Assembly: GCA_030692515.1 (NCBI GenBank)
Contig: JAUXZS010000020.1
Location: 248,001-312,000, forward strand
Reading direction: 5' to 3'
Source of the DNA: Bacteroidota bacterium
Lineage (GTDB): Bacteria > Bacteroidota > Bacteroidia > B-17B0 > Aurantibacillaceae
DNA length: 64,000 nt
The notes under the pieces are model-generated. The model saw only the letters and a program-made list of their open reading frames with translations. It did not search any database and was not told where the DNA came from. A program made the position numbers and the translations under genes. Position 1 is the stretch's first letter, and each line of letters starts with the position of its first letter. Below are positions 55,265 to 58,107 of the stretch, piece by piece.

Positions 55265-56287
55265 ATGACATTAAAACAAAGAATAGCAGGTTTTGTTCAA
55301 GTAGGATTGTTTATAAACCGACATTTTGCAGAGCAAAAACCTAACGAAACACAGTTGCATCAAGGCTTAGACAAGCTTATTGAAATGGCTCACATTTACA
55401 ATAATTGGTTTATTCCTGAGTTTGTTAAAGAATCTATAATTAACATTAGTAGCCAATTAAAAGAAGAAGAACTCGTTAATTTCACAAAATCCATTATAGA
55501 AAAGCCTCAAAAAACGGTTGCTATTATATGTGCAGGCAATATTCCAATGGTGGCATTTCATGATGTGTTATGTGTTTTATTAAGTGGCAATAAAGTTTTA
55601 ATAAAACTTTCGAGTGATGATAATGTGTTATTGCCTTTCTTTTTAAAACTATTAACGCATTACGAACCGGAGTTTGAATCGCAGATTTTATTTGCTGAAG
55701 GAAAATTAGGTGCCTTTGATGCCGTAATAGCAACAGGTAGTAATAATACAGCTCAACATTTTAAAACCTATTTTGGAAAATACCCACATATTATTCGCAA
55801 AAACCGCACTTCCATTGCTGTAATAACTGGTAAAGAAACTACAGAAGAGCTAAAGGATTTAGGCAAAGATATTTTTTTATATTTTGGATTAGGCTGCAGA
55901 AATGTTAGTAAAGTAATGGTTCCTGAAGGATATTCTTTTGATAAACTTTTTGAGGCGATAATTGATTATGGATTTGTAGTGAATAATAAAAAATATGGCA
56001 ATAATTACGATTACCACAGAGCCATTTATTTATTAGAATCGATGACGTTTTTAGATAATAATTTTTTAATGGTAAAAGAAAGTGTTGATTTGCACTCACC
56101 TGTTGGTGTTTTATATCACCAAACTTACCATAGCGAAAAGGAGTTATCTGACTATTTAGGCTCAATTAACGAGGGACTGCAGTGTGTTGTAGGGCAAAAT
56201 CATATTCCTTTTGGTTATTCACAACAGCCTGTTATTAGTGATTTTGCAGATGGTGTAAATACTCTGGAATTTTTAGTAAATTTATAG
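55265..56287 (+). CDS. Acyl-CoA reductase (LuxC-like)
   Basis: The 340-aa protein resembles the LuxC acyl-CoA reductase family and its aldehyde dehydrogenase fold, which reduces acyl-CoA to aldehyde with NADPH. Visible features are the strand-turn VAIICAGNIPMVAFHDVLCVLLSGNKVLIKLSSDD in parts near residue 80-115, the cofactor strand DAVIATGSNN near 151, and the catalytic-cysteine region LYFGLGCRNVSKVMVP near 210. It may produce aldehydes for lipids. It lies 7 bases ahead of a type IX secretion substrate gene. The exact substrate is unknown. Confidence 0.87.
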   Translation: MTLKQRIAGFVQVGLFINRHFAEQKPNETQLHQGLDKLIEMAHIYNNWFIPEFVKESIINISSQLKEEELVNFTKSIIEKPQKTVAIICAGNIPMVAFHDVLCVLLSGNKVLIKLSSDDNVLLPFFLKLLTHYEPEFESQILFAEGKLGAFDAVIATGSNNTAQHFKTYFGKYPHIIRKNRTSIAVITGKETTEELKDLGKDIFLYFGLGCRNVSKVMVPEGYSFDKLFEAIIDYGFVVNNKKYGNNYDYHRAIYLLESMTFLDNNFLMVKESVDLHSPVGVLYHQTYHSEKELSDYLGSINEGLQCVVGQNHIPFGYSQQPVISDFADGVNTLEFLVNL

Positions 56288-56293
56288 AGGTTT

Positions 56294-57136
56294 ATGAACA
56301 GACTTTTAAAAATAATTTTTACTTTATTTATTTCCACTGCTGCTTTTGCACAAGTACCAACGGCTACAATTGTTAGTCCTTCTGCAACATTATGCTCTGG
56401 TACTTCATTAACCTTCTCATCACAAACATCTAATTCTCCAACTGATTATCTTTGGACAATTACGCCAACTAAATCTGTTTCTATATTACCCGACTTAACT
56501 AGTCCCTCTGTTACTTTTACATTTACAACTGGCGGTAATTATGTTATTAGCTTAATGGTTTCTAATCTTACAGGTTCAAGTGTAACAACAAGTACAGTTA
56601 ACGTAACAAAATCTGCAAAAGCTTCGTTTAATGCGAGTTTAACCACAACAGGTTTTCCAAATCAATTAAATTTAACCAACTATTCTACAAATACAATTTC
56701 AAATCAATGGTTATTTAACGATGATTTATCTGCCAATACCACTTCATTAAATACAATTAAAAATTATTCAGTAAGCGGCAGTTATTCTGTTACTTTAATT
56801 GCTTATGGTAATTTAGGTTGTAACGATACTTCTTATTACGCTTTCAGAATTTCAGATTCATCTGGCGTTACTTTGCCAACTATATTTTCTCCAAATGGAG
56901 ATAATGTAAATGATATTTTTAAACCAATTACAAAAGGAATTTCAAGCATGAATGTTTGGATTTATAATCGTTTTGGAAACATTATAACAAATTGGGATAG
57001 AGTAAATGCTTTTTGGGATGGACATACTACTAGTGGCGAAAGATGTGAAGCCGGTGTTTATTTTGTAATAGTTGAAGCCACAGGTTTTGACGGGAAGTCC
57101 TATAAATTAAAACATAGTTTAACGCTTGTTAGATAG
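56294..57136 (+). CDS. Type IX secretion substrate with PKD-like domain and type B sorting signal
   Basis: The 280-aa protein has a signal peptide (1-19, ending AFAQ). Next come a PKD-like beta domain (about 22-105: LTFSSQTSNSPTDYLW, then YVISLMVSNLTG) and a second one (about 108-190). The final 85 residues are the gliding-motility-associated C-terminal domain (PTIFSPNGDNVNDIF, then MNVWIYNRFGN and CEAGVYFVIVEATG), the type B signal for secretion by the type IX system. The product should be a surface or secreted protein. Its stop codon lies 2 bases before the unusual start of the ABC ATPase gene. Confidence 0.9.
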   Translation: MNRLLKIIFTLFISTAAFAQVPTATIVSPSATLCSGTSLTFSSQTSNSPTDYLWTITPTKSVSILPDLTSPSVTFTFTTGGNYVISLMVSNLTGSSVTTSTVNVTKSAKASFNASLTTTGFPNQLNLTNYSTNTISNQWLFNDDLSANTTSLNTIKNYSVSGSYSVTLIAYGNLGCNDTSYYAFRISDSSGVTLPTIFSPNGDNVNDIFKPITKGISSMNVWIYNRFGNIITNWDRVNAFWDGHTTSGERCEAGVYFVIVEATGFDGKSYKLKHSLTLVR

Positions 57137-57138
57137 TT

Positions 57139-58107
57139 ATTTTACAGGTAAACAACATATCGTTTAATTATCACAATCAACATTATTTTAAGGGAATAAG
57201 AAATGTTTCGCTAAAAATAAACAATGGCGAAATTCTTTGTTTAGTTGGCAAAAGTGGCAGCGGTAAAACTACCTTAATGAAATGCATTTACGGCTTAGAA
57301 GATCTTGATGAAGGTGAAGTAATCTTTGAAGGCAAAAAAGTTCTTGGTCCTGCTTACAATCTTATTCCTGGATATAAAGACATGAAATTGGTGAGTCAGG
57401 ATTTTTATGTTTTAGATTTACACACCGTTGAAGAAAATATTTTTGATAAATTAATTGGTTATACCGACGAGGTAAAACAAAAAAGAGCAAACAAACTATT
57501 AAAATTATTAGATTTAGTAGCTTTAAAAGATTCAAAAGCGAAGTATTTATCAAGTGGCCAAAAGCAGCGTGTAGCAATAGCTAGAGCACTAGCAATTATA
57601 CCAAGAGTATTATTATTAGATGAGCCTTTTAGCAATCTAGATACAATTTTAAGTGAAAAATTATTTGCTTTTATTACCAGAGAAGTTAAAAAAAATAAAG
57701 CATCGGTAATATTAATAACGCATTTAGCAGACGAGGCTTTAAAATATGCCGACACACTTGCAGTAATTGATAATGGCAAAATAATACAGATGGGTGAAAA
57801 ATGGCAAGTTTATTATCAACCAAAAAACACAAAGCTTGCAGGCCTTCTAGGTTCTTTTAATATTATTAAACCAGAAGACTTTGAAAATAAATCAAAACAT
57901 AAAACTAAACTTTTTGTTAGACCAGATAAACTAAAGTTAGTTACTCCTAAATCGCCAATAGATTTGCGATTAGTAATTCTTAACTGCGTTTATAATGGAA
58001 AATGTTTTGAAATTTTGGCAGAAACAAAAACAGGAAATTCTTTAGTAATCTATAGCACAAAAAAGTTAGAAACAAATACTGTGCATTATTATACGGTAGA
58101 AAATTAA
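57139..58107 (+). CDS. PotA-type ABC transporter ATPase with non-canonical start
   Basis: With an ATT start at 57139 the product is 322 aa. It contains LVGKSGSGKTTLM (Walker A, near residue 38), a Q-loop in LVSQDF, the signature LSSGQKQRVAIARAL, Walker B in VLLLDEPFSNLD, and a C-terminal TOBE-like region (FVRPDKLKLV) typical of PotA/FbpC importers. The frame is closed upstream at 57130-57132. Between that stop and Walker A there is no ATG, GTG, TTG or CTG. The first ATG (57277) lies after the Walker A lysine and would destroy the ATP site, so ATT (57139) or ATA (57133) must start it unless the sequence has an error. No permease or binding-protein gene is near. Confidence 0.85.
   Translation: MLQVNNISFNYHNQHYFKGIRNVSLKINNGEILCLVGKSGSGKTTLMKCIYGLEDLDEGEVIFEGKKVLGPAYNLIPGYKDMKLVSQDFYVLDLHTVEENIFDKLIGYTDEVKQKRANKLLKLLDLVALKDSKAKYLSSGQKQRVAIARALAIIPRVLLLDEPFSNLDTILSEKLFAFITREVKKNKASVILITHLADEALKYADTLAVIDNGKIIQMGEKWQVYYQPKNTKLAGLLGSFNIIKPEDFENKSKHKTKLFVRPDKLKLVTPKSPIDLRLVILNCVYNGKCFEILAETKTGNSLVIYSTKKLETNTVHYYTVEN

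Follow-up and report, generated by a model that had tools for sequence, protein, structure and literature searches.

A predicted AUU/AUC start codon of an ABC transporter ATPase gene is kept across most genera of one Bacteroidota family

We identified an ABC transporter ATPase gene whose predicted AUU/AUC start codon is kept across most genera of one Bacteroidota family. The gene lies in a 64,000-nucleotide stretch of contig JAUXZS010000020.1 (the window, whose coordinates are used throughout), and its translation very probably begins at an ATT at 57139. What is read directly from the aligned sequences is which codon stands there and that it is conserved, that no alternative start is available, that the surrounding region is cleared, how far away the upstream gene ends, and that an SD is missing. 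The pattern suggests that production of the ATPase is deliberately throttled. The features of the locus are as follows.

55265-56287, + strand: LuxC-like gene
56294-57136, + strand: upstream gene of 280 aa with PKD and CHU_C / T9SS type B sorting domains (PF13585, PF18911, TIGR04131)
57119-57198, + strand: translation initiation region with few ATG, GTG or TTG triplets, whatever the frame (counts in 53 loci)
57133-57135, + strand: ATA, rejected as an alternative start (not conserved)
57134-57136, + strand: TAG stop of the upstream T9SS gene, 2 nt before the ATT at 57139
57138, + strand: pyrimidine at -1 (57 of 59 AUH loci)
57139-57141, + strand: predicted ATT start codon of the ABC ATPase (conserved codon column; the only possible start in 53 loci)
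57139-58107, + strand: ABC transporter ATP-binding protein, 322 residues counting the initiator, a PotA/FbpC/PhnT-like ATPase (PF00005)
57157-57159, + strand: Ile codon 7, ATA, synonymously constrained (codon columns and parsimony)
57247-57270, + strand: Walker A motif GKSGSGKT, behind which lies the first in-frame ATG (57277)

The ATPase frame is closed upstream by a TAG (57130-57132) and continues ATA GTT ATT TTA CAG GTA AAC AAC ATA TCG. Codon by codon, this frame contains no ATG, GTG, TTG or CTG from that TAG up to the ATG at 57277, which bears out the initial annotation that no ordinary start precedes the Walker A lysine. As that annotation also recognized, a start at 57277 would remove the ATP-binding lysine, because the Walker A motif lies upstream of it. 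The protein matches PF00005 with 112 bits (cut-off 25), and the 25 NCBIfam models listed of 190, among them PhnT2, WtpC, PotA, CysA and a ferric type, each scored below their own cut-off. Residues of Walker A, the signature and Walker B are invariant in 21 aligned orthologues (G36, K37, S38, G39, G41 and K42 among the invariant positions), and the N-terminal L1, N5, I6 and F8 are nearly invariant as protein.

We searched 87 genomes of the window organism's family, to which the order adds none, and found an ATPase orthologue in 76; the 11 genomes without a match, the four g26 genomes among those in which no orthologue was found, and a second fragment in G009 were left out. The column read in each locus is the codon directly before the first Leu of the ATPase, which aligns with 57139. 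Among the 76 loci it is ATT in 43, ATC in 15, ATA in one, CTG in five, ATG in six and another codon in six (CTT in two, and CTC, TTT, GGA and TTG in one each). Within the window's genus (37 loci) the counts are ATT 18, ATC 13, ATA 1, ATG 4 and GGA 1. AUH codons occur at the column in seven of ten genera (g1, g27, g28, g29, g30, g32 and g33); g31 has TTG, g25 has CTG together with upstream canonical codons, and four g30 genomes have CTG. In 53 of the 76 loci, the window included, no ATG, GTG or TTG lies upstream in the open frame, and the column codon is the only possible start. Another 11 combine a non-AUG column codon with an upstream canonical codon and stay outside the 53-locus counts, and 12 are canonical, with ATG or TTG at the column or with upstream starts only. 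The initial annotation had preferred ATT at 57139, and the comparison agrees with it: the codon class of this column is kept in relatives and the flanking columns vary. An ATG here in relatives had been set beforehand as the finding that would count against ATT; the six of 76 loci that carry one are a small minority, and the ATT reading stands.

Outside the family, five loci were read in the outgroups G037, G047, G055 and G057 and left out of the counts, and those of G047, G055 and G057 have ATG at the start column or one codon from it. A scan of named genomes found at least 80 homologous loci among the matches listed. One of these, L031 ("Bacteroidetes bacterium isolate RYN_275"), is a member of the window's genus at 66% identity and has no canonical start, with ATT present; the other 79 listed share at most 37% identity. 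Together with the T9SS domains of the upstream gene, L031 is the basis for placing the organism in Bacteroidota. Of ten loci from these 80 that were read for their start, four have ATG directly before the aligned residue, four have it 2-12 codons upstream, and L087 has GTG directly before the aligned residue; the tenth is L031.

Several genomes of genus g33 (loci L151, L152, L153, L155, L157, L158, L160, L161, L162, L164 and L171) have an in-frame ATG, GTG or TTG 9-29 codons upstream. These canonical codons sit at the end of the upstream gene, most of the loci keep ATT at the column, and two ATPase starts may coexist in these genomes.

We used a quick tree of 77 ATPases (including G047 as the only outgroup; first 12 codons left out; several long branches) to count changes at the column. 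Over the 65 AUN rows, parsimony gave minimum counts of 10 third-base changes between T and C versus 3 between G and non-G. In an 864-kb sample of the window organism's own genome, the unambiguous starts are most often ATG (229 ATG, 50 TTG, 23 GTG). The class of the ATPase start codon thus appears, on this sequence evidence, to be held by selection. In three g33 genomes that belong to the 12 canonical loci (G109, G096 and G097) the frame reaches upstream ATGs and the column is CTT or CTC, as expected if these genes start elsewhere; the column there behaves, as far as the alignment tells, as a start codon released from duty.

The surroundings of the column are also unusual. Whatever the frame, 2 of the 53 loci have an ATG between -20 and +60, 1 has a GTG and 13 have a TTG. 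These values lie below every one of 27 windows inside the same genes (in-gene minima 15% for ATG, 21% for GTG and 65% for TTG), and in the own genome the surroundings of 229 ATG starts give 41%, 25% and 78%. Since the 53 loci had been chosen for lacking upstream in-frame canonical codons, we repeated the downstream part on all 64 non-AUG loci and found ATG in 3, GTG in 2 and TTG in 7, versus in-gene medians of 50%, 39% and 73% over 25 windows; one or more of the in-gene windows matched the low ATG value, with 3%. The same downstream stretch of the 12 canonical loci contains ATG in 4, GTG in 1 and TTG in 2. All of these are raw locus counts that carry no correction for kinship. The base at -1 of the 59 AUH loci is T in 48, C in 9, G in one and A in one, compared with A in 46%, T in 39% and C in 14% before the 229 ATG starts of the 864-kb sample. 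Extended pairing of a -1 U with the initiator tRNA is one idea about this position. No GGAG, GAGG or AGGA was found at -20 to -4 in any of the 53 loci. Bacteroidia ribosomes are described as hiding their anti-SD in the accessible parts of two papers (PMC8710568; PMC9976891), and depletion of AUG around starts is known in Bacteroidetes from what is available of a third (PMC6847099); at the ATPase loci, unlike there, the depletion extends to GTG and TTG.

We also looked for RNA structure and for other copies of the motif. For six g1 genomes, hairpins were predicted around the start, with z between -1.8 and -4.5, and RNAalifold found no common structure in 29 coupled g1 loci, so a hairpin conserved over stop and start was rejected as a general feature. 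No 16S model match was found in the own assembly, where one had been looked for in connection with rRNA pairing of AACAUAUC. A search of the own genome for the start plus the AACATATC motif returned a single exact match, the ATPase gene itself. With one or two mismatches it returned 10 matches versus 6 in a backward control; none of the seven that were read (L221-L227) has the look of a gene with its start there, and these were discarded.

In 44 of the 53 loci (including G087, at a contig end), a co-directional gene of more than 100 aa stops 1-8 nt before the predicted start. By eye, the C-terminus of the upstream gene in relatives resembles that of the T9SS gene, for which the family scan covered the window copy. 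In the other nine loci (G002, G004, G005, G069, G070, G073, G104, G105 and G108) the nearest stop of a long gene is 10-180 nt away, or none was found, and AUH is kept. Coupling is therefore not indispensable, and reinitiation cannot account for every locus. For the four ATG-start loci of the window's genus, the closest long frame ends at a distance of 75-117 nt, or no such frame was found. A canonical start goes with loss of the close spacing (Fisher p 0.002, kinship ignored and G087 counted as lacking a close stop) and with loss of the AUA at codon 7 (p 8e-6, kinship ignored). Over five independent pairs the direction holds (spacing 2.3 to 0.4; AUA 2.0 to 0.1) and is not significant, a level of 0.05 being out of reach with five pairs.

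Codon 7 is the most over-represented codon among the 190 codon columns tested (z 13.7; two of the 76 loci were too short for the alignment). It is ATA in 65 of the 69 family rows with Ile, where ATA makes up about a quarter of Ile codons, and in 52 of the 53 loci whose only possible start is non-AUG. Parsimony gave 3 changes at this codon versus 4-23 at six other conserved Ile columns, which places it second of 119 columns for fewest changes. In part this excess is an ordinary preference for ATA at early codons, as ATA is raised at most of codons 2-9 in the own genome (35-58%, but 22% at codon 5), with 58% at codon 7. It would also fit the avoidance of decoys, AUA being chosen since AUU or AUC would act as in-frame false starts; ATA is itself the start in only one of 59 loci. 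Against this stand the frequency of ATC in the region, in any frame (47 of 53 loci), and the same preference for AUA at most early codons. Another Ile column, at 57286-57288 (KCIYG, after Walker A), is also codon-frozen, with ATT in 56 of 60 rows and 4 changes by parsimony.

To see the ATPase beside other genes, we scanned 864 kb of the own genome, in which 676 genes were called and 28 flagged, most of them with an ordinary ATG slightly downstream. The scan is insensitive and would miss short genes, and the C44 stretch was chosen in the knowledge that infC lay there. Besides the ATPase, it contained two convincing genes without a canonical start, infC and miaA. The infC gene (G000:C44, about 987-1634, - strand; L266) has no ATG, GTG or TTG start and has GGAGG followed by ATC. 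Across the family, 22 of 30 infC loci read have GGAGG and, 2-5 nt further on, an in-frame ATT (17) or ATC (5), and 17 of these 22 lack any in-frame canonical codon. Five of the 30 have ATG (four g26 genomes and one of the two G002 copies); the rest are TTG without an SD in g31, L194 with neither, and one locus that is cut off. This SD is common in the family, although Bacteroidia ribosomes usually ignore SDs. The miaA gene (tRNA dimethylallyltransferase; G000:C68:303834, + strand; L263) has no canonical start before its P-loop, likely starts at ATC, and has no long upstream frame ending close by. In the family, three of 30 miaA loci lack a canonical start (L271, L280 and L282) and the rest have TTG, ATG or GTG. 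AUH starts thus appear to work in the window organism's family, given infC, the ATPase and miaA, and of the three genes infC and the ATPase keep the class.

The lineages without an SD-plus-AUH infC, g26 and g31, are also without an AUH start of the ATPase: g26 (L193, L202, L205 and L209) has ATG at infC and no ATPase orthologue was found in it, and g31 (L190 and L181) has TTG at both genes. With two lineages only, this joint absence may be due to chance.

Both regulatory ideas of the initial annotation, translational coupling and a regulated rare start, fit these observations. On balance, we lean towards a throttled, largely coupled and IF3-sensitive second cistron, whose inefficient AUH start would be reached largely by termination-reinitiation; here we infer initiation at AUU itself, coupling, control by IF3, and low dose as the purpose. 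The initiator tRNA would begin the ATPase at AUU, or at AUC in sister species; codons of this class are disfavoured by the fidelity step of IF3. Most of the ribosomes on the ATPase would probably come from the T9SS gene by termination-reinitiation. Coupling of this kind needs very short spacing, as far as the accessible text of PMC10666635 goes. Reinitiation would limit the output of the ATPase to a small part of that of the upstream gene and make it sensitive to IF3 and to start-codon stringency. In E. coli an excess of IF3 lowers SD-less reinitiation about threefold, according to the available part of PMC2268962; an AUU reached by reinitiation could therefore be sensitive on both counts. Selection would act against a G at the third base, since an AUG would lead to too much ATPase or make its synthesis independent of the upstream gene, and would remove nearby AUG, GUG and UUG codons that would capture the ribosome.

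The main rival is de novo initiation at AUU or AUC, independent of the upstream gene, at a weak start in an AT-rich, competitor-poor region that holds the ATPase low. We regard this as possible, though not what we would expect. The nine loci that keep AUH without a close upstream stop argue for it, as does miaA, which in the own genome has neither a canonical start nor a close upstream gene; the spacing kept in 44 of 53 loci across several genera argues against it, and the loci of the window's genus that start with ATG belong to those without a close neighbour. More tentative, and less likely than not, is the proposal that ribosomes of these SD-blind Bacteroidota support an SD-independent near-cognate initiation, in which post-stop reinitiation on AUU or AUC within a few nucleotides is combined with an NUG-stripped region, a pyrimidine at -1 and the constrained AUA at codon 7. 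If so, the second gene of the operon would be read out by the stringency of initiation (IF3) and not by an RBS, and this would have been kept through most of the family's divergence. It is very unlikely that the AUH start makes up one half of a switch in the RNA, with the codon-7 AUA inside the same structured or protein-bound element. The rank of that codon and the g1 hairpins could be taken as signs of such an element, but RNAalifold found no shared fold and early AUA codons are generally raised in the own genome.

It is also improbable that the protein starts elsewhere, whether at the ATA (57133), at the GTT (57136) or at the ATG inside the gene (57277), or that ribosomes enter its frame by a -1 shift from the T9SS gene. 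The frames are formally open and several g33 genomes have upstream in-frame ATGs, but the columns before 57139 vary, with stops in close relatives (G019, G006, G021 and G035 have an in-frame TAA two codons before their ATC), and the N-terminal residues listed above hardly vary at the protein level; a start at 57277 would lack Walker A. The ATA that the initial annotation kept as an alternative falls in a column that reads ATA, CTA, TAA or others in relatives. The frameshift that it named as a refuting finding, one joining the ATPase frame to an ordinary start upstream, is excluded as a conserved device: the distance to the upstream stop ranges between 1 and 7 nt over 57 loci, which shifts the two frames against each other from locus to locus, and some loci have an in-frame stop between the genes. 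The assembly error hiding an ATG that it also considered is excluded, since 59 of 76 separate assemblies share the codon class, with ATC in both the single-contig G001 and the two-contig G031 assembly. A sequencing or assembly error or a decaying gene is hardly credible. None was found in the window gene, and Walker A, the signature and Walker B are invariant in the orthologues; a stop does lie inside the matched ATPase stretch of a few relatives (G024, G030 and G083-G086).

A literature search of open-licence papers found no description of this ATPase gene's start, and a gene caller restricted to ATG, GTG and TTG would be expected to cut the ATPase behind Walker A or to drop it. The best-known gene of this kind is infC, which encodes IF3, starts with AUU, AUC or AUA, and in E. 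coli regulates itself. It shares the codon class with the ATPase; the infC of this family has a strong SD, whereas the ATPase has none and is no translation factor. The E. coli pcnB gene has an AUU start that limits the protein dose, which is the same codon in a different gene and lineage. In Streptomyces, the available sections of PMC5472188 describe a conserved GTC start of sigR that is repressed by IF3, with a weak start on sigR and its partner rsrA made in excess, so that the throttle keeps one product below its neighbour. The likeness to the ATPase is a conserved non-canonical start within an operon, and the differences are the codon and a conserved AGGAGGTG SD (PMC5472188). In S. aureus, cvfC1 (AUU) and ccpN (AUA) have conserved starts of the same kind outside infC, and non-AUG starts lowered yield; there, as reported in the accessible part of PMC13009471, an extended SD compensates, and none is present at the ATPase. 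Termination-reinitiation pairs share with the ATPase a start within a few nucleotides of an upstream stop (PMC10666635, as far as available). The reinitiation in the available portion of PMC2268962 is SD-less and IF3-sensitive, and was described there for other start codons with matching mutant initiator tRNAs and not for a natural AUU.

Compared with the class of infC, sigR, cvfC1 and ccpN, the ATPase likewise lacks a canonical start and has a codon conserved between species (59 AUH and 5 CTG of 76), and the compensating SD is absent. Few genes other than infC have a conserved near-cognate start, and sigR, cvfC1 and ccpN lean on a strong SD. The ATPase start may therefore serve as a natural test of what besides an SD permits initiation at AUU, in a class whose ribosomes generally ignore SDs, and of whether the level of IF3 sets the stoichiometry of an operon. 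It resembles the starts of infC, pcnB, sigR, cvfC1 and ccpN and differs from them in the absence of an SD and in its position, mostly behind a stop codon; because of these two differences and of the effect of IF3 on SD-less reinitiation, we favour a coupled, IF3-sensitive and throttled cistron.
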